This document shows positions 947 through 22,961 of a stretch of 64,000 bases of DNA, piece by piece. Source of the DNA: Anaerolineaceae bacterium (lineage in GTDB: Bacteria > Chloroflexota > Anaerolineae > Anaerolineales > Anaerolineaceae); contig JAURZL010000016.1 in NCBI GenBank assembly GCA_030653365.1, positions 1 to 64,000 on the forward strand. Direction: 5' to 3'. The first letter of the stretch is position 1, and every line of letters starts with the position of its first letter. The position numbers and the translations under genes are program-made. A model generated the notes under the pieces. The model saw only the letters and a list, made by a program, of their open reading frames with translations. It was not told where the DNA came from and made no database searches.

Positions 947-1154
947 TTTATACTCCTTCTGTTATCTAATTATACGAACCTCCAATTTGTTTGCATCACG
1001 AAAAAGTGCCCTCCAATTCGAGAGCGCTTTATCATTTATATGCGAGCCTATTATTTTACGACCTTGACATCACAGAACTGAATTTACGACCAAAGGAAGT
1101 CCTTTGGATACCTGCACATGCGACTCGGCCTGCACAGCGAATGTGAGTGTGTCA

Positions 1155-1227
1155 ACCTAACGGCAGGCATCAGCCGCCCCATCAACGAGCTGACAGCGAG
1201 CGAAGCGGCGCTGGCTGCACGTTAGGC
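1155..1227 (-). repeat. attC-like imperfect inverted repeat
   Basis: The 73-base element opens with ACCTAAC and closes with GTTAGGC, the RYYYAAC/GTTRRRY pair that bounds integron attC sites. Inside, GGCAGGCATCAGCCGCC on the left pairs imperfectly with GCGGCGCTGGCTGCAC on the right, leaving unpaired bases and a central loop. The TAA stop of the gene at 1222-1647 lies inside the closing GTTAGGC, an arrangement common in integron cassettes. This is the clearest of the attC-like elements in the window. No integrase gene is present. Confidence 0.6.
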
Positions 1228-1647: not shown

Positions 1648-1740
1648 TAGATTGAGTCCTTATCAATCACTACTGGTACTCTCATGTAGAGCTAACAATT
1701 AATTACTCGGGCTTTTGAGACGCTGTATTTATGTTTTTTA

Positions 1741-1795
1741 GCCAACTTAAAGAATTATGCTATTCTGCAATTACATTTGGTTATTTCAAAAATGA
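1741..1795 (-). promoter_or_regulatory. Recurring leader element, copy 1 (putative promoter)
   Basis: One of five diverged copies of a leader with the plus-strand core 'CTRTTCTGCAATTAnncTTGGTTA'. Other copies are at 9409-9440, 10918-10985, 11890-11960 and 22075-22140. On the minus strand a -10-like hexamer (TGTAAT here, 1770-1775) follows ACCAA. The copy lies about 120 bases upstream of the start at 1647. Its role as a promoter is inferred from this recurring position. Confidence 0.4.
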
Positions 1796-2080
1796 TACTG
1801 CGATCCCATTGTATAAATTATATAATATCATCCTTTTGGATCGCAACAATCTGAGCCAGTAATCCACTCCAAAACAAAATTCCTTGATCAGTTTGGGATG
1901 TAATCCGTTTAATGCATCATTTTTAGCCACTGAGAAAACCTATGTTATCTGGGTCAGGCTGAAGACCTTTTCACAAAAAAAGTTACCCGGGTATGGGCTT
2001 CTTCGGAAACACGACTTCGATTATTGGCAAGACACCTTCAGCGGACGCGAATTGCCGGTGCTGTTCGGGAATGAGGTCGA

Positions 2081-2257
2081 CCCTAACGGTTTGTGTTCGC
2101 GAGGCATGGTGCTGGGATGGGAGTGGATTCGTTTTGAGATGTAAATTCTGCTTGGGAGCGGAGAAAACCCGAAGCCACGCATCGCAAAATACTTGACACC
2201 CAGCAAGCCGCAGGCGCAAAGCGTAGACCTCATCATCGAATGCACGCTTTGTTAAGC
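2081..2257 (-). repeat. Long attC-like repeat
   Basis: A 177-base element bounded by CCCTAAC and GTTAAGC. The ends can pair around TAAC, GTG and TTCG. It shares the inner block 'CGAAGCCACGCATnGC ... CTTGAC' with the elements at 7768-7935 and 8583-8739, so these three form one sequence family of unusually long attC-like repeats. Short frames on both strands through this element are incidental. The surrounding interval 1648-2500 otherwise holds only the leader element and no gene. Confidence 0.45.
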
Positions 2258-2500
2258 ATTTTTTGTTGTGTAAGACTTGATTTCCTAGAAAAGTCACCAC
2301 AGCCAGTGATTCTCACATCTTATCCATCTTCCTAGTTGTCTTCCGTATCTCTGTCCTCGCCCATCGGTAATGACTGCTTGTGCAGGAAATGAAATATGCG
2401 GCGAGGGCGTTATTTCTTGTCCAGGCGTAATGTCCGCGTGTGAATAATACATTTTCAGGAATGGTTTGGTATTATCTTTATGATCACTTTATTATTTTAC

Positions 2501-6147: not shown

Positions 6148-6425
6148 TTTCTACACTCCTTCCCTTTCGTGCAATCCAAAATACGGTAGCAACTCTCTCC
6201 GTAGAGGATAACTCTAATTATAGAGGATTATGGCAAGATAACTGGCTTTCTTTACCTCGTTTGAAGAAATGTAGCCTGATTGAGTCCGCCCTTATCAACT
6301 TGGTCCACTTTGGGGATGCTAACGCGATCCACGCACCGGGTGTGAAAGTATCGAATCCAAGATGGCCTTGTTATGGATGGTTCGGTATCATTCTTATTTG
6401 AGTCAACATTACACCTAAAGTTTGA

Positions 6426-7253: not shown

Positions 7254-7767
7254 CGGAACTCCTCACCTCAGAACCGCCAGAAGCCCTACCGCCTATCTAT
7301 TTTATACAGTCATCTGTATAAAACCGTGATTGGTTCCTATACGGTTATTTGGCTATATAAAAATTAATAGTTCAATAATTCTAGCATAAAGGAAAGTGAA
7401 AACGCGAAAAGAGCCTTACAACCCAGGGCAAAAAACTCCTTGAAGATGCACGATCAGATACGCGACAAACAATATTCATGCTGAAAAAAATAATTTACCT
7501 TCCCTTTGGTGGGGAATACGTTCTCTATCATAACTTGGAATTTAAACCGGGAAAGGTTGCTTAAAATTCTATTTTTTCTCACTTTTTAGGAGAGAGAAGA
7601 GGCTTGCATCTCGAACCAGGCATTTAGTATAGGTAAAACAAAAAAAAAGCGCCTTCCAGAAGCGATAGTGATTTTTCCTACATACTTACAGCTCTATGCC
7701 TATATGACAGCTCGGAACTTACGCCCATATATACGACTTAGTCCACTTTGTTGATTTTAGAGAGTTG
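7254..7767. other. Gene-free spacer
   Basis: About 510 AT-rich bases with no credible ORF. A run of ten adenines at 7641-7650 precedes 'GCGCCTTCCAGAAGCG', a possible short hairpin terminator on the minus strand. It resembles the terminators found in the tail repeats of this zone, but pairing is weak. Confidence 0.3.
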
Positions 7768-7935
7768 ATCTACCGGTTTGGGTTATACCCCTTGGGGTAC
7801 GTGTGGGCAAAAATGGATACATTTTAGGAGAAAAAGAAACATGAAGCCATGCATGCGCAATATGCCTGACTGCAAAGCGTGCGGTACGCCGCGTAGCTGC
7901 AAGTCTCCCCAAGCGTCCAGTGCGATTTGTTAGGC
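7768..7935 (-). repeat. Long attC-like repeat
   Basis: A 168-base element that closes with GTTAGGC (7929-7935), 22 bases beyond the stop of the gene at 7958. The left end (ATCTACC) is a degenerate RYYYAAC box. The interior shares 'GAAGCCATGCATGCGCAA ... TGACTGC' with the elements at 2081 and 8583. 'CCCCTTGGGG' on the left and 'CTTGGGGA' on the complement of the right arm give partial pairing. An 80-residue frame through it (7824-8066) is not considered a gene. Confidence 0.5.
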
Positions 7936-8470: not shown

Positions 8471-8582
8471 TCTTTTACATCTCAATTTGTCAAGTTGTTG
8501 AAAGGATGAAATAATCTGGTGACGTAAAGTATAGTGCTATATCTTTTGAATCTCGTTTTCATCTATTGTTACGCCTTTTGCC

Positions 8583-8739
8583 GCCTAACGGTTTGCGTTA
8601 TATCCCTTCGGGGCATGTGTGGGCTGGTGTGGAAAATGTTTGGGAGCAGAAAAAACACGAAGCCACGCATGCGCGAAATGCTTGACTGCCGCTACGTGGC
8701 GTGGCGACGATTCCCGCCCGTGAGTTGCATGCTGTCTAA
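8583..8739 (-). repeat. Long attC-like repeat
   Basis: Begins with a perfect GCCTAAC (8583-8589) and ends near GTCTAAG (8733-8739), a poor GTTRRRY match. It shares 'CGAAGCCACGCATGCGC' and 'GCTTGACTGC' with the other long repeats. The 3' end of the DHFR-like gene reads into it: the last 13 codons of that frame are repeat sequence. The overlap of gene end and repeat parallels the element at 1155-1227. Confidence 0.5.
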
Positions 8740-9309: not shown

Positions 9310-9408
9310 AATCAACCTCCATCCACCTGTATTCAAATTTCTTCAACAAACCACAAGAATATACTAAGAGCGATAAAACAAATAATTATTTGGACTTTTG
9401 ATACACTG

Positions 9409-9440
9409 GCATTATTCCGTATAGCTTATTGAAAGAAGCT
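9409..9440 (-). promoter_or_regulatory. Recurring leader element, copy 2 (partial)
   Basis: Plus-strand 'CATTATTCCGTATAGC' followed by 'GAAGCTGTTATTTC' matches the leader elements at 10918 and 11890 but is shorter. It lies 100 bases upstream of the DHFR-like start at 9309 and directly beyond the 3' end of the gene at 9442. A promoter role is inferred only from its repeated placement. Confidence 0.3.
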
Positions 9441-10824: not shown

Positions 10825-10917
10825 GGCTGATTTCTCCTTTTTTCCTTCAAGACTTAAGAAGGTTGCTGACTGTGTAAGCTGCCCAATTATTAATTAACTG
10901 ACTTTTAAAATGCCACT

Positions 10918-10985
10918 ACTATTCCGTAAAGCCACTTAATAAAAGTAAGCTGTTCTGCAATTATGCTTGGTTATTTTAAAAAATC
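10918..10985 (-). promoter_or_regulatory. Recurring leader element, copy 3 (putative promoter)
   Basis: Plus-strand 'ATTCCGTAAAGCCACTTAA', then 'CTGTTCTGCAATTATGCTTG', matching the copies at 1741, 11890 and 22075. On the minus strand CATAAT (10960-10965) follows ACCAAG as a -10 candidate, about 136 bases upstream of the 41-codon gene. Confidence 0.45.
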
Positions 10986-11084
10986 AACTCCAAACTTAAC
11001 CTTAAATGTATAAATTCCTGAATCGTAAAGTCAAGCCCATGACCGTTCAATCACCTCCAACACCTAAAAAACTTCCATACTCAA

Positions 11085-11747
11085 TTAGGGTATAAACTGC
11101 TTCCAATTTCCTTCAGAGACTACTTCGACGGTTCCATTGACGACCTTGATGGCTGTCTGTTCGTCGATGGCATAGGCCGGGATGCCAATGTCGGCCGCCC
11201 ACCGCTCTGCGTCAGCCAGGGTGTTAGTCGGGAAAGCGTTCAGGTGCGGGAAGATTGAGAAATTAACGACTCCCAGGGTGCGGTCGTCCGGGGCGGACAG
11301 CCACTCGACAAAGTACGCTCCGATCCGTGGCGTCATCACCAAGCTTCCGGCACTCACTCCCACCCAGACCGTGTCTGGCAGCGAAGGCAGCAGATCGGCC
11401 AGCCCGGACTCCCTCATTCAGTGGCATAGGTAGGTCGCGTCGCCGCCGTCAACCAGGAGTACGTCTGCCTCTTGAAGCCAGGGCACCCATCGCCCCGCAC
11501 CGATGGTGGGCAATGCGGTGAGCTCGAGGACACCAAGCGACGCCCAGCCTAGGCCGGACAGGTATCGGAATTCGGTTCCGGCGGCTATGAAGTCTCGCAC
11601 CGTTGTTGGACCGCACATCGGGTGACCCCACTGTGCAGTTGGGATACAGAGGGCGTGACACTCGGCGATTGGCTTGCCCAGCAGGTCGACCAGTGCATCG
11701 TGGATGCTAGTGTTTGTGACACCCCCGGAAGTGAGAAGAAGTTTCAT
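11085..11747 (-). pseudogene. S51 family (peptidase E-like) peptidase with in-frame TGA
   Basis: The frame starts at the ATG at 11747 (AAGGAG ten bases upstream; MKLLLTSGGVTNTSI) and ends at 11085. A TGA at 11418-11420 interrupts it after 'DATYLCH', and the same frame continues with 'MRESGLADLLPSL'. The family usually has Trp at this point, so a single TGG-to-TGA change explains it. The catalytic serine motif GVSAGS lies in the second half. Full length would be about 220 residues, normal for Asp-dipeptidase-like S51 enzymes that cut N-terminal Asp-X bonds. Likely inactive. GC-rich compared with its neighbours, and flanked by leader elements. Confidence 0.8.
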
Positions 11748-11889
11748 GATGGCACTCCTTGCCAATGGAATGAGACCTAAAAGGCCCATCCAGCTTGTAC
11801 GACAACCAACGTTTCCAAAAAAAAAGAGAAAATTCTTTTTTTGTTGTCTGCCGCACAACTATTAATTATACAGACTCTTGATTCGCTGC

Positions 11890-11960
11890 AATTATTCCGT
11901 ATAGCCATTTAGCAATGGTATGTTATATTGCTATTATCCTTGGTTGCTTCTAATAATCCG
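11890..11960 (-). promoter_or_regulatory. Recurring leader element, copy 4 (putative promoter)
   Basis: Plus-strand 'AATTATTCCGTATAGCCATT' and 'ATTATCCTTGGTTGCTTC' match the other copies. On the minus strand GATAAT (11933-11938) follows ACCAAG, about 185 bases upstream of the S51 start. The sequence further right, to about 12010, continues to match the copy next to the DUF35 gene ('CAACCAAAGC', 'AAAATTACCAAACACCTTCT'). Confidence 0.45.
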
Positions 11961-12043
11961 CTGCAACCAAAGCGTAAAATTACCAAACACCTTCTCTTTT
12001 TATAACAAACCGTCTATTTGTGATTCATCAGCTCCAAACAAAT

Positions 12044-12150
12044 ACCTCCCTCAAGAAATAGATGGAGGTTTTAATTTTCAATTCGCAGGTATCCTAAATT
12101 TTTTTACTCCATCATAAGCCTGAATTTATATCCGTAGATTGAACTCGGTA
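12044..12150 (-). repeat. Copy of the DUF35 gene 3' tail with terminator
   Basis: 'GCCTGAATTTATATCCGTAG' (from about 12122) matches the last codons of the DUF35 gene at 22286-22684. The downstream hairpin CCTCC ... GGAGG (12046-12070) corresponds to the native terminator at 22226-22256. The match runs on into the leader copy at 11890, so this is one long diverged duplicate of the 21.9-22.3 kb region. It sits immediately downstream of the gene at 12307. Confidence 0.55.
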
Positions 12151-12306
12151 TCGGCTAGGGAATAATGAAAATTTTCTAGGTTCATGCTTTAAATGAAACT
12201 AGAGGTAAAAAGTTTACCTAGCCAATAAAGCATTAAAACTTGCGAGGTTTCTAGCTAACACACAACAACGCTTTCGGAAGCTCTCTTTTTTTGGTATGTT
12301 AATGAC

Positions 12307-13014
12307 CTACATTCGTTTAGCTATCTCGAAATCATCATGCGTGATAATTCCATGTGTTACATTGTTGATGAAGTATTTCCTTTTATCAGAATTAATAGAG
12401 GCAGCGATTTCTTTATAAGTTGGAATTTTGATCATTGGTTTAGTAGCTGTTGCCAATAAAAGGTGGAATTCATCAATCGTGTTTTTATCACTACTTAGAA
12501 GTGGAGTTACCCAATTAATATCCAACTTCAAAGAAGGAGTTACACAACTTCTCTCTCTTCCAACTTTATATTCAAAAGTATTTATTTTCTGGTTTATTTT
12601 TTGTTGATTAAAGAGTTTGGTAATTCCTTTCTTAGCGCTTGCTTCGATAATTGACTCGTTTGTCAACCAGGCTAATACTCCCCAATCATTAACAAAATTT
12701 CCTTGCATACCTTCTGCTCTTGATAAAGCTATACACTCACATAGTAATTCATTCGGATTGTTAATTTTCTCCCGTAATGGGACAACATAAGCGAAACCAA
12801 TTCTTTTTGCCATTCGATTTGAGAAAACCATGGTCATTCCAGATTTCGATTTTCTTCCGTATCGAATTGGCACTTTGACAGAAATTTTATCTTCAACACT
12901 TAAATGAGAATTTCTCCAGTTCAGTCTTAAGTTATCACCCTCATCGTTAAGGTAATTTTGCCATAATAAAGATCCAATAATTATTACTCCACATTTCAAG
13001 TTCCAATTCATCAT
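12307..13014 (-). CDS. Unknown protein, possibly gamma-glutamylcyclotransferase-like fold
   Basis: 235 residues. The opening 'CGVIIIGSLLWQNYL' recalls the 'GxGSLL' loop of the GGCT/AIG2 fold, followed by 'VPIRYGRKSKSGMTMVFSN' and 'GFAYVVPL'. No further motif allows a function. GAGG lies before the paired ATGs at 13014. It is the last gene of a three-gene minus-strand operon with the double-DUF262 protein (70 bases upstream) and the AlbA_2 protein, all AT-rich. In that context a role in defence is inferred. A copy of the DUF35 tail follows its 3' end. Confidence 0.55.
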   Translation of the reverse strand: MMNWNLKCGVIIIGSLLWQNYLNDEGDNLRLNWRNSHLSVEDKISVKVPIRYGRKSKSGMTMVFSNRMAKRIGFAYVVPLREKINNPNELLCECIALSRAEGMQGNFVNDWGVLAWLTNESIIEASAKKGITKLFNQQKINQKINTFEYKVGRERSCVTPSLKLDINWVTPLLSSDKNTIDEFHLLLATATKPMIKIPTYKEIAASINSDKRKYFINNVTHGIITHDDFEIAKRM

Positions 13015-13083
13015 TTTCCTCTTTTATTTTATTGGTTTGAAACTGGCCAATCGAAAATTGTTTGGTTTGGTTTTAGTGAAGAC

Positions 13084-15483
13084 CTAATCCGATAAAAACA
13101 ACCCTTCAAAACCATCAGGTTTAATACTTTTGATTAAATTTGCAAAGTACAAATATCCTTTATTTTCACTTATCATGGTTTCAGGAACATTTTTCATAAA
13201 ATTAAATACGGAGGCGATTTGTTCATATACAGGTGGTTCTTTTATGGAATCAATATCCATTTCATCAAGAATGCTCCAAAGGATATAAAAGTCTTGAAGA
13301 GTCCTCTGATGATATTTTCGCTTTGAGCCTGATGATAACAAGTGGTCGAGTTTGTCTCTTAGAACGGACGGATCGTCATGTTTTGAATTCAATAAGGCCT
13401 CAGTTTTTTTTAGAAAAAATTCAATATTGCTGATACTTTTCAAAAAATCAGTTTTAGTTTCATTATTGCCAGTCACATCAAATAATAATGATGTCACTTC
13501 TTTTTTCTCTTTTATGCGCGCATTAATACGTTCACCTTTTTGATATATATCTAAAAAACTTGAAATCGATTTCTTTTGAGACTTCCTATAATCGAAATAA
13601 GTCAAAATTGAAAACAGCTCTTCATTGGTCATTCTATCTCTAAACATATCTTTATTCACATTTTTGATAAAAAACCAATTTTGGTTTTTTCTAAAGATAG
13701 CTTTAATAGAATCAATTACATCTTTATCAACCCATGAATTCCACATTTCGAATGAATTCTCACGAATTGGGTATGGTTTATCATTCAATCGTATAAATAA
13801 ATCAACAGGGTTAAAAGAAGGATTAAGGATTTCTTCAATCTCTACTACCAAAAGCTCAAAATCCCATATTTTTTCTTTCATATCTTCACTGAGTTGATCA
13901 AAATTCTTCCCATTTAAATTCTTTAAAATTTTCAGATTCTTTAACTTGAAAGAGTTATTTTTCGAATAAGAAAAGTTGTTGTTTTCATCTAAGTATTTCT
14001 CCCCCATAAAACCAAGAATGGTCAAAAGTCTTTGTTGTCCATCTATAATTTCACTGATTCCATCACGGCGTTTGAAAATAAAAATGGCAGGAAGCATTAT
14101 TCCCAGAAGGATACTTTCAATAATTGCGGATGCCTTTGTTTGATCAATCACTTCTGACCGTTGATAAGAGGGTCTAATCAAGAACCGATTCTTGCTCATT
14201 GAACGATGGATATCCTCGACCGAATTTCGTGAGGGATCTGGCTTTGTAATTCTGAGAGTTTGAAGTTTCTCTAATTCAGTAGACGTATCATTTTTCTTAG
14301 CTCTTATTTGCGCAACCTCTTCCCTCGATTCGTTGTCACCTTGAACATATTGAGAAACTGTCAACCCAAAGCAATCTTTTATGTAATTTTCAAAAATAGA
14401 AAAACGGTTAAGGGTTTCTTTACGATAATGAGAATCGGTTAATTCGAAAGCGCTTGCGTTATCCAAAAATAATTTGGTTAGCGAGCGTACAAATTTATCT
14501 TCGCCAAGCTGTCGAAAATCCACTTCCTCTTGTTCAAGTAAATGAGATGCCCACAATAGCCCTTCCAAAAATAAACGGTTAGAGTAAGATATTTCAGGCT
14601 GAATTCTTTCATTAATACTATTAATTAATTCGACTTTCTCAAGAAAACCTTCATATACATGTTCAGGTTGGTCATGATCGTTGTAAGTGTATTCGTAAAA
14701 TTTGCTGATTAATTCGGATCTTGCCGCACCACCAGCATAATACTTTATGGGGAACTTAAAAAGAACAAGCGATTTTCGTATAAATTGTAGAATACTTTCG
14801 ATATTTTGTGAACTAGTATTTTTACTTTGACGTAAAAAAAGATCGGAAATAATTTGCCTATGCCTAGGATTTTCCCGAAATTTTTTCTTAAAATATCGCG
14901 AGACTGAGTCAGAGTCATAGATTGCATTATCTATTTCAGCTTTTCTTAATGGGGTAATACCTGAGTTGTATCTACCGAATATTTCTTTCTTGAGTCTATC
15001 AATTAATATTGGGTTGCTTGGAGGTTGATTAATTAGCTCAAACTCAATGATCCTGATTTTTGCATCAAGAAATGTTTGATAAATCTCTGGGGATTCTTGT
15101 CTAATAACATCAAAGTCCTTTTTTGAAAAATCAAGAAGAGAAACCAACCCCTTTTTTGTCAGTTTAAATTCTCCCTCAATAAATCTTTTTAACGTTTCAA
15201 ACCTCTGCCTCCCATCAATTACTTCAGTTTCTTTATCTCCTTTAAAAAAAATTAATGGGGGAATCTCTGTTCCAAGAAGAATACTCTCGACAAAATATGT
15301 CGCCTTCGAATCATCCCAGACATAATTTCTCTGATAATAAGGTTTGTAATCAATCCTTCCCAATTTTCTTTTATTAAAAAAAATACTTTCAATGGATTTG
15401 GGGTATGTTTGGATTTTGATGTGTGATTTAAAAATTTCTTCGAATTGCTCTTCGCTTAGAAAAATGTTGTTAGTCGATTTCAT
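13084..15483 (-). CDS. Double DUF262 (GmrS/SspE-like) domain protein
   Basis: 799 residues with two DUF262 domains in tandem. The first (about 25-150) has YYQRNYVW (49-56), ESILLGTEIPP and DGRQR (90-94). The second (about 420-560) has SYQRSEV (439-445), ESILLGIMLPA and DGQQR (481-485). DUF262 is an NTP-hydrolysing module of modification-dependent restriction factors (GmrSD) and the phosphorothioation-linked SspE. Those also carry a DUF1524 HNH nuclease, and no HNH motif is visible here; the last 200 residues are helical and unassigned. The start codon lies two bases past the stop of the AlbA_2 gene, indicating coupling. An antiphage role is inferred. Confidence 0.75.
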   Translation of the reverse strand: MKSTNNIFLSEEQFEEIFKSHIKIQTYPKSIESIFFNKRKLGRIDYKPYYQRNYVWDDSKATYFVESILLGTEIPPLIFFKGDKETEVIDGRQRFETLKRFIEGEFKLTKKGLVSLLDFSKKDFDVIRQESPEIYQTFLDAKIRIIEFELINQPPSNPILIDRLKKEIFGRYNSGITPLRKAEIDNAIYDSDSVSRYFKKKFRENPRHRQIISDLFLRQSKNTSSQNIESILQFIRKSLVLFKFPIKYYAGGAARSELISKFYEYTYNDHDQPEHVYEGFLEKVELINSINERIQPEISYSNRLFLEGLLWASHLLEQEEVDFRQLGEDKFVRSLTKLFLDNASAFELTDSHYRKETLNRFSIFENYIKDCFGLTVSQYVQGDNESREEVAQIRAKKNDTSTELEKLQTLRITKPDPSRNSVEDIHRSMSKNRFLIRPSYQRSEVIDQTKASAIIESILLGIMLPAIFIFKRRDGISEIIDGQQRLLTILGFMGEKYLDENNNFSYSKNNSFKLKNLKILKNLNGKNFDQLSEDMKEKIWDFELLVVEIEEILNPSFNPVDLFIRLNDKPYPIRENSFEMWNSWVDKDVIDSIKAIFRKNQNWFFIKNVNKDMFRDRMTNEELFSILTYFDYRKSQKKSISSFLDIYQKGERINARIKEKKEVTSLLFDVTGNNETKTDFLKSISNIEFFLKKTEALLNSKHDDPSVLRDKLDHLLSSGSKRKYHQRTLQDFYILWSILDEMDIDSIKEPPVYEQIASVFNFMKNVPETMISENKGYLYFANLIKSIKPDGFEGLFLSD

Positions 15484-15485
15484 TA

Positions 15486-16322
15486 TTACAAGTCCAAGTT
15501 AATCCTTTTACGATCCGAGGCTATAATTAGTCGGGTATTCAGTAATATTCCAATTCTTTCATTTTCAGTCAACCATACATCTCTTACAAGGCTAAATGGA
15601 ATATTAATTACAATTCCGCTTATTTTCAGTGAGAACTCATAGCTTGAAACATTATTAAGAACAATGACAGTTTCCAGTACATCCCATTTTTCAGGTTTAT
15701 CAATTGGTTCCTTCTCAATTTTGGGGTATAAAGTAACTTCTCGGGTATGCCTACATAAATCTTCAAGTTTAATTGGAACACTTCGGTTGCTTGTTGACAT
15801 TCTTTTTTCTACTTCTAATGGATGAAAATATTTTTTCCCGTATGGAGTTCTATAAGGAAATTTTTGGGAATAGGGAGGAGAAATATTGTAAACACATGAA
15901 ATCCCTAAAGCAAGTGGTAATACATTTATTGCCATTAGCTGAGTGTTGCTTGGGCTTTCAAGACACATTAATTCTACCTTAACTTCTTTTGGAAAAATTA
16001 AAGGCAAAACAGAATCATTGATAAATTGAGATAATTCTTCAAAATTAGTTATCCCAGGAAAGTCCTGTGCTACCTTTTTCCCAGTTGCTGCACTTTTCGT
16101 TTCATCGACACCAAATAATAACACTCCCCCCCATGTATTTGCAAATTGGCAAATATCTAATGCGAATTCTTCTGCAGCTGATTTTTTCTTCGATGGTGAA
16201 GAAATATCAATATTCAGCTTGAAATCCATAAAAATAGATTCGGTAGTGATCCCTAATTGAATATTATTTTTTAGGTCTGAAGAATTTCTGATATATTTGG
16301 GTTCAATATAATTTTCAATCAT
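15486..16322 (-). CDS. Schlafen-type AlbA_2 domain protein
   Basis: About 278 residues from the ATG at 16322 (a TTG three codons upstream is also open). The core 'TTESIFMDFKLN' (residues 30-41), 'EFALDICQFANTWGGVLLFG' and 'VDETKSA' is the AlbA_2 (Schlafen AlbA, formerly AAA_4) nucleic-acid-binding domain. The C-terminal 100 residues are unassigned. AlbA_2 proteins occur in defence islands and as regulators. First gene of the three-gene operon with the double-DUF262 protein, whose ATG follows this TAA almost directly. Confidence 0.75.
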   Translation of the reverse strand: MIENYIEPKYIRNSSDLKNNIQLGITTESIFMDFKLNIDISSPSKKKSAAEEFALDICQFANTWGGVLLFGVDETKSAATGKKVAQDFPGITNFEELSQFINDSVLPLIFPKEVKVELMCLESPSNTQLMAINVLPLALGISCVYNISPPYSQKFPYRTPYGKKYFHPLEVEKRMSTSNRSVPIKLEDLCRHTREVTLYPKIEKEPIDKPEKWDVLETVIVLNNVSSYEFSLKISGIVINIPFSLVRDVWLTENERIGILLNTRLIIASDRKRINLDL

Positions 16323-16370
16323 TCGATTCAAGCCCTGATATTGTTTTTACTTTGCACTTCCAATAAATTA

Positions 16371-16850
16371 AGATATGATATTCTTCATTTCCGAGGATTT
16401 CGTCGGAGTTGAACTGAGATCTCTTATCGAACACCTGGTATTTGAAATTGAAAACACACCTATAATTTAATACCCTGTGATTAAAAAATAGAACTATGTG
16501 AATTGTACAATCAAAAAGGAAATAAACGCAAGCCAAAAGAGAATAAAAAAACATTCGGGAGAGGTATAATTGGGTAACCACCTTGAATTCTAGTTGCATG
16601 ATTGATTAATAGATCCATCTGAAAAACAAAGCGAGAATCTTTCTTTTTGGAGAGGCTAGTAAGATGGATAGTGCGTTGAAGGAGGAGATGCCGTCAAAAA
16701 TTCAAGTAACATAATATTTGTCTCCCACCACCAATTCAATCAATTGATCAATTCAGGATAATCATAAACTCCCTTCATTTCAGAAGCACGTTTTTATCGT
16801 TCTGTTTCTTTTATCCCATTATTGGGTAGAAATTGTATCCATATATACTA
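16371..16850 (-). repeat. Long diverged repeat, copy 1 (pairs with 18573-19060)
   Basis: About 480 non-coding bases align along their length with 18573-19060. The clearest block is 'GTGAATTGTACAATCAAAAA' followed by 'AAATAAACGCAAGC'. Others are 'GTTGAACT', 'AATAATATTTGTCTC', a terminator-like 'CTCCCTTCATTTCAGAAGCACG' split by mismatches, and 'TTGTATCCATATATA' at the right end, a weak match to the DUF35 3' tail. A 94-codon frame across it is not credible. Confidence 0.55.
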
Positions 16851-16881
16851 TTTGGTTCGTGTATAGATAATTTAAGTGATT

Positions 16882-16995
16882 GTCCAACGACTTGCGTTAC
16901 TTGAGCGTGGGCGACCGTGGACTCTGTTTTCTCGAAACCAAAAATATGGTGAAATGCTGCCGAATCCGAAACTTCAGTTACACGCTTTGTTAGCC
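16882..16995 (-). repeat. attC-like repeat
   Basis: 114 bases bounded by GTCCAAC (16882-16888) and GTTAGCC (16989-16995), both legal RYYYAAC/GTTRRRY boxes. The arms 'GCGTTACTTGAG' (left) and 'CTTCAGTTACACGC' (right) are near-complementary with a few unpaired bases. It sits ten bases past the stop of the gene at 17006, the position expected for a cassette attC site. Confidence 0.5.
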
Positions 16996-17005
16996 CGATT
17001 ATTGC

Positions 17006-18451
17006 TTAAGGATTCACTATACGGCGAATAGCATTTGCCTTAGAATTAATGTGTGTGTCATCTTTCATGTTTTCCAAAGCACCAGTATAACTATCAATAT
17101 CACTTACCAATTCTTTCATTACTGGAATTGTTACTTTATCTCTCATTAAATCCACTAACCTGCGAAACTGTCTTTGACAAAGTGGAAATTGCAATCTGCT
17201 CGATATTGTTTTATTAACAAATGAAAAGACAGCAATTGAAGCCTGCGTTGAGTCGAATTGGTTGAGCAATTCAATATATGTAATTTCTGCATTCCATGCA
17301 ACACCGTTTCCGTTTGTTAAAAATGCTTCTACTATACTTAATACAAACTTGATATTGATTTCATTTGGAACTTTTCCTGTTTCACCTACTTGACGTTGTA
17401 ACTGACGGGCAAAGGCTGGTTCATTGTAAAAATTATTCAATCCCCTGTGTGCGGTCAGTAGATTTTCAATCGCATTTCCAATTTCAACTACTCTAATTCC
17501 TTTTGGTAAGTATTGTGCACCAGAAACCACATCTAAAAATTCACGGGCTAATTTTTGGCGGTCTTGGTCATTTGTAGCAATAAACCTAGCATATCGAACA
17601 CCAAACTCATTCCGTGTAATCTCGTCCACCATTTCCCATAACAGCGGAATCAATAATTGAATATTTTGGCGCGTCTGCGTAGTTGTATCAAGTTGAATAT
17701 AAATTCCATAAAGACCAGCCGCTAAAGTGTTTGCTTTTTCTTGAGTAAGACCAGCAAAGAAAACTGCAATTTGCGAGGCTTCATCTTGAGTAATTTTGTT
17801 ATTCTTGATGTTTCCAAGTAATTGCTTGATTTCGACAACTACATTAGAAAGTGGAAGTTTGATTACCTCCACGACGCATGTTTCAAACATGCTAATTAAT
17901 TGTAAGCCAGTAATTTGATTTTGATTTGGGTGTGCTGCACTTGCCCAATTTCGCATATAACGAACAAAATCAAGATGGCGAAAACCTAAATCGGAAATCA
18001 ATCCAATTTCATTTGAGCCTTTGATAAGGTCGCTGTCGTCAATCCTTTGTAAATCGTCTTCTGTGCTAAGTCTTCTTCGCTTTTCTGTGCTACTTCCTAC
18101 TGCGACATCGTAAAAATAAGCCAAGTCGTATTGTGCTACACGCATTCTAAGTTCGTAGATGGTTTCATCCCATAGGTAGTTTAAGGCGGCATCAAATAAA
18201 CCTGACGCGGTAGCCGCAATAAATTTTGAAATGTAAACTGATTTACTCAAACGTTCATTATCAATTCGATTAAGAACGGTGTCTATATTTCGGATTACAA
18301 CCTGTCGCTGACCAACATCAACAAGAACAGTTTCGGTTGGAAGTCCTTGTTCACCAATAAAAGAAAGTAGTGATTTTTCAAACTCCAAAAGTTGAATGCT
18401 TATAGCACCACTTTGAACTGTGATGATTTTATTTTCATCTTCATCAGACAT
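17006..18451 (-). CDS. Large helical protein with a HEPN-like Rx6H motif
   Basis: 481 residues, almost wholly helical. At 167-175 it reads RNWASAAHP. Arg followed by a polar residue and a His six residues later fits the R(x4-6)H signature of HEPN RNases, which often appear as 'RN...AHP' in toxins and abortive-infection proteins. The rest (helical repeats to residue 481) is not recognised. AAGGA precedes the ATG at 18451. Stand-alone gene with an attC-like repeat at its 3' end and long diverged repeats on both sides. A defence RNase role is plausible but inferred from one motif and context. Confidence 0.6.
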   Translation of the reverse strand: MSDEDENKIITVQSGAISIQLLEFEKSLLSFIGEQGLPTETVLVDVGQRQVVIRNIDTVLNRIDNERLSKSVYISKFIAATASGLFDAALNYLWDETIYELRMRVAQYDLAYFYDVAVGSSTEKRRRLSTEDDLQRIDDSDLIKGSNEIGLISDLGFRHLDFVRYMRNWASAAHPNQNQITGLQLISMFETCVVEVIKLPLSNVVVEIKQLLGNIKNNKITQDEASQIAVFFAGLTQEKANTLAAGLYGIYIQLDTTTQTRQNIQLLIPLLWEMVDEITRNEFGVRYARFIATNDQDRQKLAREFLDVVSGAQYLPKGIRVVEIGNAIENLLTAHRGLNNFYNEPAFARQLQRQVGETGKVPNEINIKFVLSIVEAFLTNGNGVAWNAEITYIELLNQFDSTQASIAVFSFVNKTISSRLQFPLCQRQFRRLVDLMRDKVTIPVMKELVSDIDSYTGALENMKDDTHINSKANAIRRIVNP

Positions 18452-18572
18452 AAATTACCATCCTTTTATTATATTGGAAGTGGCAGGCTACCGAAATAAG
18501 GATTGATTTCCTATGTTCCTCAGGATAACATGGTGGAGGAGGACAAAATCGAAGGTCTGTTCAACGTACCAC

Positions 18573-19060
18573 CACATCAATCATTCATTTCTCAGGACCT
18601 AGCCCGAGTTGAACTAAGGCGCATTTGAGAACACTTGCTATTTGGAATTTAAGAAACACTAATCATTTAAAACTCTGGTTATGCAGACGAATATAGGTGA
18701 ATTGTACAATCAAAAAGAAAATAAACGCAAGCTGGAAATGAGACATAAAAATATTAAGGTGAGTCGGATATTAAATTATTTGAATTGAAATCTGGCTTCA
18801 AAATTGAAACTTGCATCCATCGAAAAACAAATCGAGAACCGTTCTAATGACTCATGGAGGGTAGTGTTCAGTGGGTTGAATGGTGCGCAAGAAGAGTAGC
18901 TATCGTCCACAGTCCAAGCAATAATATTTGTCTCTAACCATCTTTTGAATTTATTGATCAACATTATTGGGCAAACAAAAAACGCCCTCCATCTCTGAAG
19001 TGCGTTTTATCTTTACTGAATTCGTTTTTCCAATTCACCTGCATAAACTTATATCCATAA
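18573..19060 (-). repeat. Long diverged repeat, copy 2
   Basis: Counterpart of 16371-16850. It includes 'GTGAATTGTACAATCAAAAA' (18708 onward) and a terminator hairpin read on the minus strand (about 18985-19008, AACGC ... GCG followed by T6). It runs on into the clear DUF35 tail copy at 19038-19112. A 62-codon frame (18776-18964) is incidental. Confidence 0.6.
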
Positions 19061-19112
19061 ATAATGATTCCCCGATCATCCATATCCGTTAGGATCTTGC
19101 GGGTGACCATTT
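19038..19112 (-). repeat. Copy of the DUF35 gene 3' end (about 75 bases)
   Basis: Near-identical to 22296-22370, the last 25 codons of the DUF35 gene, with an uninterrupted 20-base match 'TTATATCCATAAATAATGAT' and then 'CCCCGATCATCCAT'. The copy stops abruptly at 'ACCATTT' and is joined directly to the 3' flank of the truncated gene at 19117. With the native end at 22286 it forms a direct repeat bracketing 3.2 kb. Confidence 0.8.
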
Positions 19113-19116
19113 ACTT

Positions 19117-19640
19117 TTACGACACAGTTACATAAATTAAATCCGTCCCATTTCCTTGAGCTGTAGGTGGTGGTGCCAATTGTCGCCAATCTTGAAAACT
19201 CATCCCTGAACGATGTATCATCGCCAATTCTGATTCATACATCGCCAAACGATTTTCATTTTCTACCATCGATTCCATTAACCCCAGTATTGCTGGTAAA
19301 TGACCATAAATCTCCATTTCAGGAGATTGTGTTACCGCTTCTTGAGAACCCATTTTCGATCCTGAAAATTTAGATATCTTACCTGGAATTGCCCCTATAA
19401 ACTTTTTAGATTGTTTGGCAAACCCGTTTAGCACATTTGTTTGGCTGGTAACTTTTGGAATACGAATGGCTTGTGGGAGTGAGACAATCCAATTTTCCGG
19501 TTTCTGAGCTAAATTGAATAGATTATCCCGTTGCATTTCAAAGACATCGCACTCATTTATACCTGGTTTTAGCCATTGATAAACATTGGTCAGACGTTTC
19601 AACCCAAATTGTTCCTGTAAACTTGGGTGAAAATAGTGGC
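19117..19640 (-). pseudogene. 5'-truncated paralogue of the 407-residue helical protein
   Basis: The last ~175 residues match the C-terminus of the gene at 20752-21975 closely ('VYQWLKPGINE', 'NWIVSLPQAIRIPKV', 'GNGTDLIYVTVS'). Homology begins at about 19640 ('FHPSLQEQFGLKRL'), and nothing of the N-terminal 230 residues remains. An internal ATG gives a 161-codon frame, but it lacks a ribosome-binding site. It probably arose by duplication and deletion with the insertion of the zinc-ribbon gene, or by recombination between two modules. Confidence 0.75.
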
Positions 19641-19695
19641 AGGATTTGAGGCTCTTATCTACCTTAAATCATCAAAAATGGCCTTATCCCATATT

Positions 19696-20520
19696 CTACT
19701 TATTCTTGGGCTGGTCAATAGAGATAACCGCTTCATCCGGAGGAGGACTGGTTTTCTTATTTCGGTGGAATTTACTTCGTATCCATTTTTTTGCGGAAAT
19801 CCAGATTTCTGCGTTGGGAGTTAACCCGTATACAAAACCGATGATACTGATCAAAAAAATGAGTAATGACGCGGCGGTAAAGATTGGACCCGAAGTTCCC
19901 TCACTTCCACTGGTTCTGACCTCGTTAAATAACGATTTATCCAGCGCTTGGGCTGGAATGCCAATTAAACAAGTGAAAACAATCAATACCAGGAACCACG
20001 TTAAGCAGCCTCGACCAAGTGAAGAGAGTCCGCCGCGTGGCTTGGGGGGTAGTTGTTGTAGCCCTGCATTCAAATGGGCTTGGGCGGTTTCTTTATTAGG
20101 AAATGAGTCACCCAAAGCCAATTGCAATTTATTTATCCGATTCCACAGAGAAGTCTCCGCCTGGCTCAACCCTTTTAGCTGGCCTTTAATCTTGCGGTCG
20201 GCCTTTTGGCGTTGCAAGGATCGGATTTCGGCTTGGATACTTGCAAGTTGAATTTGCAAAGATGATATTTCCTGCCCAAGCTGCAATCGTTTTAATTCAC
20301 TTTGTGTCACCTGGGTGCTTTCCCGAATCGTCGATTGGGTTTGTGCACCGGAATCCTGGATGGATTTGGTCACTTGCTCCATTAATTTGAGGGCAACATA
20401 GCCATCGCCACGCTTAACCATCAAGTTAGCCCCACAAAATGCACAATTGAAATTATCCAATTCGGGTGGTACTTTAATCGGCGCACCACAAGAAGCACAA
20501 TTGATGGTTACAATTTCCAA
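19696..20520 (-). CDS. Zinc-ribbon, coiled-coil membrane protein
   Basis: 274 residues starting at TTG (20520) with GGAG six bases upstream. The N-terminus is a zinc ribbon, CASC (8-11) and CAFC (26-29), followed by 'GANLMVKRGDGYVAL', then a coiled coil (about 50-130, 'SLQIQLASIQAEIRSLQRQ'), two membrane helices (about 170-192 and 213-233) and a basic, proline-containing tail. No family-specific function is known to me. It lies between the full and truncated copies of the 407-residue gene and may belong to the same functional module. Confidence 0.65.
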   Translation of the reverse strand: MEIVTINCASCGAPIKVPPELDNFNCAFCGANLMVKRGDGYVALKLMEQVTKSIQDSGAQTQSTIRESTQVTQSELKRLQLGQEISSLQIQLASIQAEIRSLQRQKADRKIKGQLKGLSQAETSLWNRINKLQLALGDSFPNKETAQAHLNAGLQQLPPKPRGGLSSLGRGCLTWFLVLIVFTCLIGIPAQALDKSLFNEVRTSGSEGTSGPIFTAASLLIFLISIIGFVYGLTPNAEIWISAKKWIRSKFHRNKKTSPPPDEAVISIDQPKNK

Positions 20521-20751
20521 TATTTCTCCTTTTTGCCCGTCAATCGATCTAATTTGCTATTCAACCTCTGGAGCAAGCGGGGGGCATCTAACTTAATCTT
20601 CAAATCGGTTGTCCGGCTGCAGATAGGTGAAATTATCGTTTGCTACAAGAACAAAATCTGGCGGACAAAGTCATCAAGCACTGAATCCGACCACGAGGTA
20701 GATTGCGCAATCCCGAAAGTGAACTCGCGGTGTTGCACGGCCTTTTTGCTT

Positions 20752-21975
20752 TTACGACACAGTAACATAAATTAAATCCGTCCCATTTCCTTGAGCATTA
20801 TCTGTTGGTGCTAATTGTTGCCACTCTTGGAAACTCATCCCTAACCGATGTATTGTCGACACTTCTGATTCATACATCGCCATACGATTATAATTTTCAA
20901 CCATTGACCCCATTAATACCATCATCGCTGGTAAATGACTATAAATCTCCATTTCAATTGATTGGGTTAACGCTTCTTGTGAACCGGTTTTCGATCCTGA
21001 AAATTTAGATATCTTACCTGGAATTGCCCCTAAAAACTTTTTAGATTGTTTGGCAAACCCGTTCAGCACATTTGTTTGGCTGGCAACTTTTGGAATACGA
21101 ATGGCTTGTGGGAGGGAGACAATCCAATTTTCCGGTTTCTGAGCCAAATTGAATAAATTTTCCCGTTGCATGTCAAAAATATCGTTCTCATCTACACCTG
21201 GTTTTAACCATTGATAAACTTTAGTCAGATGTTTCAACCCAACTTGTTCTTTTACACTTGGGTGTAAATAAGCAGCTGGGTTAGAAGTCAACAATGTGTT
21301 GATGTGCTTTTCAAAACGAGGTCGAAGTACAACCGCGCTTTCTTGCAGGCGGCGTCGAGCAGTATCAAGTTCTTCTAATTCAAGGTAACAACGAACTTCA
21401 GTAATATAGGCCAAGCACAATGTCGTAAGGTATTCATCCGCTACCTGGCTACCATTGCCAATTTCTATATCCGTAAGTTTGGTATAGTGATGTTCTGCCT
21501 CCAAAAAACGGTTAATGGCTTGCATAGCACTCATTTTGCGGGTTTCAGAGTTAGTCATCGTAAAAGCGTTAAAGGCTAAATCAAGGGCAGCTCGAAAGTT
21601 AGCATAAAAAGACAAATCAATTTTATAATCAATGGCTTGAAGAACTTCCTGGGCTTGTTCAAGTTGGTGTTCAATGTCACCTAAACGTTTTAGAACTATA
21701 GCAAAGCCCATTGTTGAAACTGCCAAATTTAGAATACTGGCTACATTGCTCAGATTACTGACCACATTACTAAGATTATTTGCTGCAGCGTTCACTGATG
21801 AAAGAGCCGAAGAATTTGATAAGACCGAATCGCTTTTCACGTTCTCTCGCAACCAGGCAACAACTTGTTTCGACCCTATCTCTCGCACTACCCCGCCTAC
21901 ACGTTCATAAGTTCCATTTGATAAACCTTGTGCAATCTGTACTGGAATATTAAAAGTGGCATCAATTGTAGTCAT
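20752..21975 (-). CDS. Conserved helical protein of unknown function (407 aa)
   Basis: 407 residues. 'IPVQIAQGLSNGTYERVGGVVRE' and 'KQVVAWLRENV' open the protein. Residues 58-100 are a small-residue-rich amphipathic or hydrophobic helix pair ('SNVVSNLSNVASILNLAVST'), then a long helical region with 'DYKIDLSFYANFRAALDLAFNAF' and a C-terminal domain ending 'GNGTDLIYVTVS'. I recall similar unassigned proteins in other filamentous or multicellular bacteria but no function. The helical hydrophobic segment is compatible with a membrane-acting effector, which is speculation. GGAGAAG precedes the ATG. First gene after the DUF35 terminator on the minus strand, with a leader element about 145 bases upstream. 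Confidence 0.65.
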   Translation of the reverse strand: MTTIDATFNIPVQIAQGLSNGTYERVGGVVREIGSKQVVAWLRENVKSDSVLSNSSALSSVNAAANNLSNVVSNLSNVASILNLAVSTMGFAIVLKRLGDIEHQLEQAQEVLQAIDYKIDLSFYANFRAALDLAFNAFTMTNSETRKMSAMQAINRFLEAEHHYTKLTDIEIGNGSQVADEYLTTLCLAYITEVRCYLELEELDTARRRLQESAVVLRPRFEKHINTLLTSNPAAYLHPSVKEQVGLKHLTKVYQWLKPGVDENDIFDMQRENLFNLAQKPENWIVSLPQAIRIPKVASQTNVLNGFAKQSKKFLGAIPGKISKFSGSKTGSQEALTQSIEMEIYSHLPAMMVLMGSMVENYNRMAMYESEVSTIHRLGMSFQEWQQLAPTDNAQGNGTDLIYVTVS

Positions 21976-22074
21976 TGATTCTTCTCCAAATTTGACTTAA
22001 CATAAATTGAAAAACAAAAAAAACGAGATATTCAACCAGACCATCTATTAATTTTCCGGACTCATGGTACGCTG

Positions 22075-22140
22075 AAATTAAAACGTTTAGCTAACCAAGA
22101 GAAGTATGCTATGACGAGATTATACTTGGTTACTTCAAAA
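22075..22140 (-). promoter_or_regulatory. Recurring leader element, copy 5 (putative promoter)
   Basis: On the minus strand a perfect TATAAT (22119-22124) follows 'AAGTAACCAAG', the best -10 box of the five copies. TTGCAG lies 22 bases further upstream, too far for a classical -35. It stands between the DUF35 terminator and the gene at 20752-21975 and is presumably the promoter of that gene. Confidence 0.5.
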
Positions 22141-22225
22141 AGTAAGCTGCAACCAAAGCTTACAATTACCAAACACCTTCTCTAATTAGAACAAACTGTC
22201 AATATGCAATCCATCAGCTCCTAAC

Positions 22226-22256
22226 AAAAACCGCCCTTCAGAAACAGAGGACGGTT
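22226..22256 (-). terminator. Rho-independent terminator of the mevalonate operon
   Basis: Read on the minus strand, CCGTCC ... GGGCGG with a 12-base loop is followed by TTTTTGTT. It lies 30 bases beyond the DUF35 stop. Diverged copies of this hairpin together with the gene tail recur at about 12046, 16772 and 18985. Confidence 0.75.
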
Positions 22257-22285
22257 TAATCTTCAATATGTAGGATTTTATAATT

Positions 22286-22684
22286 TTAACCCATAACCGG
22301 CCTGAATTTATATCCATAAATAATGATCCCCCGATCATCCATGTCGGTGCGGATTTTGCGGGTCACCATTTCGACTGGCATGCCAATTTCCACATCCTGG
22401 TCTCCTAAATCGGTCAGTTGGGCGGTCACAACCGGACCTTCTTCCAATTGCACCAATGCCATGGTATAAGGAGCGGATTGTTCGTAACCGGTTGGGACAC
22501 TGGTCATCTGTGTAAAACTATAAATCTGACCGCGGCCGCTGAATGCAAATTGTGTTTTTGCTTCTCCACCGCAATAGGGGCAAACATCGCGTGGTGGAAA
22601 AATTTTAGAACTACAATGGGGACAAACTTCACCCACCAATGCGTAACGTTGTTTTTTTAATCTCCAATGACGTGGTACTTCCAT
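22286..22684 (-). CDS. Zn-ribbon OB-fold (DUF35) protein of the thiolase/HMG-CoA synthase complex
   Basis: 132 residues. Zinc ribbon CPHC (21-24) and CPYC (35-38), then an OB fold ('GRGQIYSFTQMTSVPTGYE', 'PVVTAQLTD'). In archaea a protein of this family bridges acetoacetyl-CoA thiolase and HMG-CoA synthase and shares their substrate pocket, and the operon context here is the same. AAGGAG precedes the ATG. It is separated from the thiolase by 300 bases containing two perfect palindromes. Its last 25 codons are copied at 19038-19112 and more weakly elsewhere, pointing to use of this gene end as an insertion target. Confidence 0.85.
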   Translation of the reverse strand: MEVPRHWRLKKQRYALVGEVCPHCSSKIFPPRDVCPYCGGEAKTQFAFSGRGQIYSFTQMTSVPTGYEQSAPYTMALVQLEEGPVVTAQLTDLGDQDVEIGMPVEMVTRKIRTDMDDRGIIIYGYKFRPVMG

Positions 22685-22746: not shown

Positions 22747-22786
22747 GGGTGTTTTTGGGCGGGTAATTACCCGCCCAAAAACACCC
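22747..22786. repeat. Perfect 40-base palindrome with GTTTTTGG/CCAAAAAC arms
   Basis: The sequence from GGGTGTTTTTGGGCGGGTAA to its exact reverse complement forms a 20-bp perfect inverted repeat without a loop. GGGTT to the left and AACCC to the right extend the pairing. It belongs to the hairpin family also seen at 22922, 34721, 36099, 38687 and 40420. It lies inside the mevalonate operon between thiolase and DUF35 gene and could attenuate or stabilise the message. Confidence 0.85.
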
Positions 22787-22921: not shown

Positions 22922-22961
22922 GAGTGTTTTTGGAAGGCGCATGCGCCTTCCAAAAACACTC
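22922..22961. repeat. Second perfect 40-base palindrome
   Basis: GAGTGTTTTTGGAAGGCGCA followed by its exact reverse complement. The arms share GTGTTTTTGG with the palindrome at 22747 while the centre differs but is itself symmetric, so compensatory change has kept the hairpin. It starts 21 bases beyond the thiolase stop. Confidence 0.85.

Follow-up and report, generated by a model that had tools for sequence, protein, structure and literature searches.

A DUF35 gene and a row of copies of its 3′ end

The window analysed here is a 64,000-nt stretch of an Anaerolineaceae bacterium (GCA_030653365.1, contig JAURZL010000016.1, positions 1-64,000, forward strand). It carries a DUF35 gene and six DUF35-tail sites, all on one strand: the native gene end (T0) and five copies (T1-T5), with leaders, cargo genes and repeats between them. 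The features are as follows.

22286-22684, minus strand: DUF35 (ChsH2-type) gene, the proposed insertion target, whose 3′ end is T0 (Pfam OB_ChsH2_C 4e-19, zf-ChsH2 1.3e-8; site-model match 22279-22322)
22224-22258, minus strand: terminator-like hairpin after T0 (read directly)
22042-22230, minus strand: flank A0, attI-like leader, decayed, core ~22045 (AATTAATAG^ATGGTC); 75% to flank A3
20752-21975, minus strand: 407-codon cargo gene (PADLOC JukB 1.2e-6; homologue behind an attI-like site in genome G002, locus L021, 12550-13776)
19696-20520, minus strand: cargo, zinc-ribbon protein, 274 aa (Zn_ribbon_FGT1_2 1.3e-5, below its cut-off)
19110-19635, minus strand: partial duplicate of the 3′ part of the 407-codon gene, joined to T1 (self-comparison)
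19022-19112, minus strand: T1, copy of the DUF35 tail that includes gene interior but no arm (identity 0.87 to the DUF35 ends of both G003 and G006)
18485-18960, minus strand: flank B1, leader with promoter-like TTGCGT-N18-TACAAT (flank comparison; promoter read by eye)
17006-18451, minus strand: cargo, 481-aa protein of unknown family (nothing significant in Pfam or PADLOC)
16805-16861, minus strand: T2, hybrid site of decayed arm and tail (site model E=3.5e-6)
16384-16751, minus strand: flank B2 (67% to flank B1)
15486-16331, minus strand: cargo, SLFN_AlbA_2 protein (Pfam 6.9e-7)
13084-15483, minus strand: cargo, double DUF262 (GmrSD_N) protein (Pfam 5.4e-29, two stretches; PADLOC NsnA 3.9e-58)
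12307-13014, minus strand: cargo, 235-aa protein, no family in Pfam or PADLOC
12093-12174, minus strand: T3, hybrid site of arm and tail (site model, training site)
11856-12040, minus strand: flank A3, attI-like leader, core 11859 (GTATAATTAATAG^TTGTGCGGC; flank comparison)
10878-10993, minus strand: attI-like repeat without tail (self- and flank comparison)
9377-9425, minus strand: attI-like repeat without tail (flank comparison)
8581-8710, minus strand: attC-like repeat (aligned repeats; fold no better than shuffles)
7765-7934, minus strand: attC-like repeat directly before the T4 arm (aligned repeats)
7685-7767, minus strand: T4, hybrid site (site model E=3.6e-16, training site)
6296-6319, minus strand: weak arm-only remnant (site model E=0.012)
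2047-2258, minus strand: attC-like repeat (aligned repeats)
1694-1792, minus strand: attI-like repeat without tail, core 1696 (flank and attI comparison)
1152-1227, minus strand: attC-like hairpin (GCCTAAC..GTTAGGT) before the T5 arm (DNA fold z=-2.65, equalled by 1 of 200 shuffles)
1065-1149, minus strand: T5, hybrid site with a 22-nt insertion (site model E=3.5e-6)

The initial annotation had proposed that defence-like modules entered in succession at the DUF35 3′ end, with tail copies at ~19 kb, at ~12 kb with adjoining leader sequence and, weakly, near 16.8 kb. A search of the whole 4.5-Mb genome recovered the first as T1 (19037-19112, 86% identity to DUF35 22296-22371, E=5.8e-18) and the second as the T3 region (11856-12139, 74% to 22042-22321 across tail, terminator and leader, E=1.2e-43). 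The weak copy also held: 16384-16847 matches 18584-19063 in self-comparison (E=1e-25), and T2 was found by a site model (R1) that had not been trained on it. With T4 and T5 added, the sites outnumber those first claimed. R1 was trained on nine of ten listed sites, T5 being left out because of its insertion; its E-values for the window sites refer to 24 kb searched with filters off, and those of T3 and T4 are flattering, as both were among the nine. Chance similarity of the tails was ruled out by the whole-genome matches, the site-model scores and the spread of matches over the family. As for a tRNA target, the window contains no tRNA.

Read in the DUF35-forward orientation, the tail of nearly all copies starts at the codons TAT-GGA-TAT-AAA, about ten codons before the stop. 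In T2-T5 this start is preceded by an arm foreign to DUF35, with the consensus GCGGACCGAGTCG-ATGTACGGGTATAAG, much like an attR; these four sites are hybrid junctions. T1 is a different kind of junction: it starts 53 nt earlier, within true DUF35 interior, lacks the arm and is joined to the 3′ end of the partial duplicate of the 407-codon gene (88% to 20745-21270), so that it looks like a later rearrangement. Serial insertion restoring the gene end therefore stands for T2-T5 and not for T1. Because T1 is not a junction of the arm-and-tail kind, the border between the first two of the three modules that the tail copies had been said to bracket has no support as an insertion; the stack extends over the greater part of 1-22 kb, and defence makes up only part of it.

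Several smaller observations concern the same region. The 22-nt insertion in T5 has counterparts in other genera, where short inserts lie at the same place (loci L136, L138 and L140). Two perfect 40-nt palindromes (..TTTTTGGGCGGG..) lie between DUF35 and the thiolase gene, at 22747-22786 and 22922-22961, and a palindrome similar to the TTTTTGGGCGGG pair interrupts a copy of flank B in G006 (L033). The DUF35 C-termini differ within the genus, ending in MG, MQA, LAGPR or M.

The stack carries mixed cargo behind two kinds of leader

The leaders fall into two distinct sequences, with flank A at T0 and T3 and flank B at T1 and T2. The AlbA_2 and DUF262 (GmrSD_N) assignments made from the letters hold in Pfam, in which the gene called HEPN-like gave nothing significant. 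At 11085-11858, a Peptidase S51-like gene lies in two frames and is probably a pseudogene (weak Pfam match, 0.078).

We then tallied array proteins, using 148 of the 149 listed frames. The commonest Pfam families, among the best 25 of 189, were RibD, methyltransferases, CAAX proteases, HTH and AbiEii, and PADLOC returned Mads parts, PD-Lambda-2, AbiE and AriA among its best 25 of 234. The array cargo is thus a mix, of which defence is one part.

The site recurs across the family at a fixed place

Matches to the site model were found in 67 of 121 family genomes, the organism's own included, and in 29 of 40 genera, some of them being the native DUF35 end alone. In a class-wide control of 150 drawn genomes, the own genome and 3 of the 149 others matched, the three coming from three other families. 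The arm was present in 69 of 101 model rows, and within each locus all rows lay on one strand. Within the genus, seven of eight genomes had a non-native site, the exception being G006, in which the contig ends 7.5 kb after DUF35; the arm pattern, allowing 3 mismatches, gave nine matches in five of these eight genomes versus two for the reversed pattern. The arm site was absent from viral contigs, searched with one exact pattern, and from plasmids, searched with one 141-nt query.

A set of 80 named DUF35 loci, with titles mostly of Anaerolineaceae, Anaerolineales or Chloroflexi (e.g. Leptolinea, Bellilinea, Ornatilinea, Longilinea), gave the same orientation throughout. All 72 matches lay on the DUF35 strand. 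Of these, 52 are native ends; the other 20, found in 15 loci, lie farther downstream and include the end of a second DUF35-like gene (L184). Gene families upstream of DUF35 were common to 33, 32, 31 and 29 of 62 loci, whereas those downstream were common to at most five (5, 4 and 4) of 60. Among the relatives compared, no pair of strains with an empty and a filled site was seen.

A serine recombinase lies at the DUF35 3′ end in relatives

In Leptolinea sp. HRD-7 (G050; AP024710.1), the strand opposite to DUF35 encodes, at the 3′ end of that gene and overlapping it, a 542-aa serine recombinase. Its Resolvase (1.3e-19) and Recombinase (1.1e-8) domains both score above cut-off, and the first arm site lies ~21.5 kb beyond DUF35 and the recombinase; between DUF35 and that arm site, the island also encodes a PF00589 protein. 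Relatives of the recombinase occur in 11 of the 121 family genomes, nine of which have it at the DUF35 3′ end (G033, G038, G050, G055, G056, G066, G081, G095 and G100). The gene is full length in G050, G055, G056 and G095, a fragment in G038 and cut by contig ends in some others, and it overlaps DUF35 in all three cases measured. G084 holds a recombinase remnant beside an arm site, and G045 has no DUF35 in the 13 kb covered. Eight of the 80 named loci have a recombinase at the 3′ end, and two of the eight have two consecutive copies. In L220 and L232 (10422-13704), two serine recombinase genes stand in tandem 3′ of DUF35, perhaps as two stacked islands or as a pair.

Comparison of island ends located both junctions at the same core. 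Of nine left ends, we compared the six that carry one and the same type of recombinase (G050, G056, G066, G033, G081 and G038): DUF35 identity was 71-83% in the 110 nt leading up to TATAAG and 95-98% beyond it. At the right junctions of four ends picked for looking alike (G003, G005, G056 and G104), identity was 91-95% before the core and 47-65% after. The window has junctions of the right type only (T2-T5). In G056, both ends belong to one island of ~34 kb, with DUF35 and the recombinase at C23 ~11.5-13.4 kb (recombinase C23:11818-13440) and the arm at C23:46150-46221; it bears defence genes, a scan of ten cargo proteins having returned a TOTE-type primase-helicase, a type I methylase and restriction subunit, an Mrr-type endonuclease and AbiEii. 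G003 shares 2.4 kb of the right part of this island at 92% and has no PF07508 match; what it carries is probably a derivative of the island without the enzyme. A unit of ~0.5 kb is present twice in G003 (89.8% over 510 nt), with tail and arm at its borders. An 825-aa protein of G003 (L017, 12978-15455) reads like the TOTE primase-helicase of the G056 island (L254, 12151-14607; Pfam match).

The initial annotation had seen no integrase. This holds for the genome of the window, which has no PF07508 match (E<=1e-4) and no such recombinase, but not for the relatives, in which the serine recombinase sits at the DUF35 3′ end. PF07508 was absent from 13 of the 21 genomes searched, a set made up mainly of genomes with arrays; this is a count to be read with the fact that fragments in G066 and G084 escape the model; the PF07508 matches of G001, G002, G004, G036 and G082 lie away from the DUF35 site. 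The enzyme is therefore absent where stacking is best seen.

Integrons share the site

In G006, an intact intI (481.5 bits; cut-off 265), whose product is ~53% identical to plasmid IntI1, lies directly 3′ of DUF35 and is followed by attI and cassette-type genes. G069 shows the order DUF35 tail, terminator, frameshifted intI, attI, an N6/N4 methylase with a CfrBI-type endonuclease, an attC-like end, arm and old tail. In G013, an intI remnant that runs into an attI core is separated from an arm site by 76 nt; in G073 a remnant lies within ~0.8 kb of a tail site, and in G004 one lies ~2 kb away. At E<=1e-25, intI was found in 6 of 121 family genomes, the copy in G031 being elsewhere; the genome of the window has only a 53-position remnant with two stops, on another contig.

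In the window, flank A with its core at 11859 belongs to the same family as the attI beside the intact G006 intI, with a degenerate box (GTTGTGC). The attC-like repeats align with one another; one of six folds well, some of the folded stretches being shorter than a full site, and two home-made attC scans did not detect them. Among the sites compared, a GTTRRRY box stands exactly 30 nt before GGACC, with six or more of seven matches in 27 of 57 sites and in at most five sites at any other offset (mean 4.9 of 7 matches at 30 nt versus 2.66, sd 0.40, elsewhere). These 57 sites were left from 173 model rows (34 + 67 + 72, some genomes overlapping) after rows without a loose arm motif, with less than 110 nt upstream or duplicated had been dropped, and related sites among them are non-independent. 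Integron arrays therefore often end directly at the arm. The attI itself has a weak likeness to the site (equalled by 10 of 1000 column shuffles) and none to the native tail (equalled by 165 of 1000).

In G004, flank B is matched 13 times, mostly away from tail sites. In that genome, L068 (C81, 7105-11014) encodes a 338-aa tyrosine recombinase (PF00589 4.1e-29) followed by three tandem copies of flank B, each preceding a single gene.

Probable serial insertion by a serine recombinase, and its alternatives

The hybrid sites, both junctions and the position of the recombinase in relatives, all obtained by computation together with the spread and orientation of the site, support serial insertion that restores DUF35. 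For T2-T5 this reading draws on the single strand, the fixed tail start, the conserved arm and, in relatives, the recombinase gene and the sharp junctions that both island ends make at one core. We consider it likely that the DUF35 3′ end is the attachment site of an island family moved by a large serine recombinase, and that repeated insertion builds the stack. A complete island would carry the recombinase gene just inside its left end, antisense to DUF35, such that the 3′ end of the recombinase gene would itself be the DUF35 tail copy brought by the island, and would close at its right end with an arm of ~60 nt. Recombination at or near TATAAR/TT would swap the last ~10 codons of the gene for those of the island and leave the old tail behind the arm; by repetition the stack would grow, from islands with or without a retained recombinase. 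The stack in the window consists of short units without the recombinase, several of them integron pieces with attI-like leader, cassettes and attC-like repeats, and in G006 and G069 an integron integrase takes the place occupied elsewhere by the serine recombinase.

The serine recombinase would thus be the catalyst. Since the genome of the window lacks such an enzyme, its units presumably arrived by the same route through an enzyme since lost, perhaps acting in trans, or in part by homologous recombination. Serine integrases usually need only a 2-bp common core; the long common tail fits the need to restore DUF35, though it had not been predicted. Three further points speak against this explanation: the misfit of T1, the IntI that stands in the recombinase's place in G006 and G069, and the PF00589 protein in the G050 island.

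An integron integrase that inserts a whole platform (tail, terminator, intI, attI, cassettes and arm) at the DUF35 tail was our first reading, and as sole driver it was given up, the gene next to DUF35 in G050 being a serine recombinase; because of that find, a reading at first given a fair chance, though less than an even one, became improbable. The intI genes next to DUF35 in G006 and G069, the G013 remnant and the box at its fixed offset speak for it. Yet the serine recombinase holds that place in nine genomes, with sharp left junctions, intI is present in six family genomes, one of them with its copy elsewhere, and the attI resembles the site only weakly and the native tail not at all. We judge homologous recombination between DUF35 genes and short tails, with no site-specific step, to be hardly more probable as the origin of some or all of the window units. 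T1, with its DUF35 interior and partial gene duplicate, and the missing recombinase in the window genome would suit it, but the common tails are just ~40 nt long and diverged, the arm core is conserved across many genera and the junctions fall at one place. Least probable of all is another recombinase acting in trans, such as an Xer enzyme: each of 12 genomes has at least four PF00589 matches, but a serine recombinase is already placed at the site, and the dif-like look of the site is a judgement by eye against the consensus.

With the serine recombinase as the preferred agent, the reason for the use of the DUF35 site by integrons is something we infer: platforms with tail and arm may be hitchhikers on the serine-recombinase site, inserted in trans by an island enzyme, a suggestion we make tentatively and hold to be somewhat short of an even chance.

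Relation to known elements and implications

Integrative mobilizable elements and ICEs with serine integrases have the recombinase at one end, a fixed target gene, elements in a row and integrase-less derivatives. The DUF35 islands are alike in all four respects; they differ in their target, the 3′ end of the DUF35 gene of a mevalonate-type operon, and in a recombinase gene that overlaps this target, with tail DNA common to both on opposite strands. Such elements also undergo tandem accretion; papers on the subject include PMC5704250 and PMC5357655.

The sedentary chromosomal integron of Xanthomonas, as summarized in PMC12444791, has intI downstream of ilvD through one ancestral acquisition. 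It shares with our locus an intI 3′ of one conserved gene and frequent intI loss, whereas here integron parts lie between gene-end copies and the site is also used by serine-recombinase islands. The integron-like elements at rulB in Pseudomonas likewise insert site-specifically at one protein gene with variable cargo; they have three recombinases and a 3-bp repeat, and the abstract mentions no gene-end copy (PMC4542609), which the DUF35 islands do carry. Copies of attI inside arrays are a feature common to our stacks and to the attI-type cassettes and attG recombination by IntI1, whose account, as far as consulted, contains neither a gene-tail site nor stacking at one gene (PMC12901181). In the portions seen, papers on sul4 report integrons adjoining that gene and Chloroflexi as its likely source, and do not mention a DUF35-type site. 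Judged by titles and abstracts, searches of the open literature listed no paper that deals with serine-recombinase islands, or with integron units, at the end of a DUF35 gene. The unusual part is the association of integrons with the DUF35 attachment site.

These findings explain a hypervariable hotspot common to much of a bacterial family and give its target, its ends and its probable enzyme, so that the borders of islands, and new defence genes, can be found there. A serine recombinase whose site lies within a conserved gene end could be useful for genome work in Chloroflexota as well. Integrons are not known to move between genomes otherwise than on a transposon or plasmid; if they hitchhike on the DUF35 site, they would have a route without either. 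Such hitchhiking would make a two-level system, with cassettes gathered in platforms and platforms in the stack, through which integrons would gain a mobility of their own.
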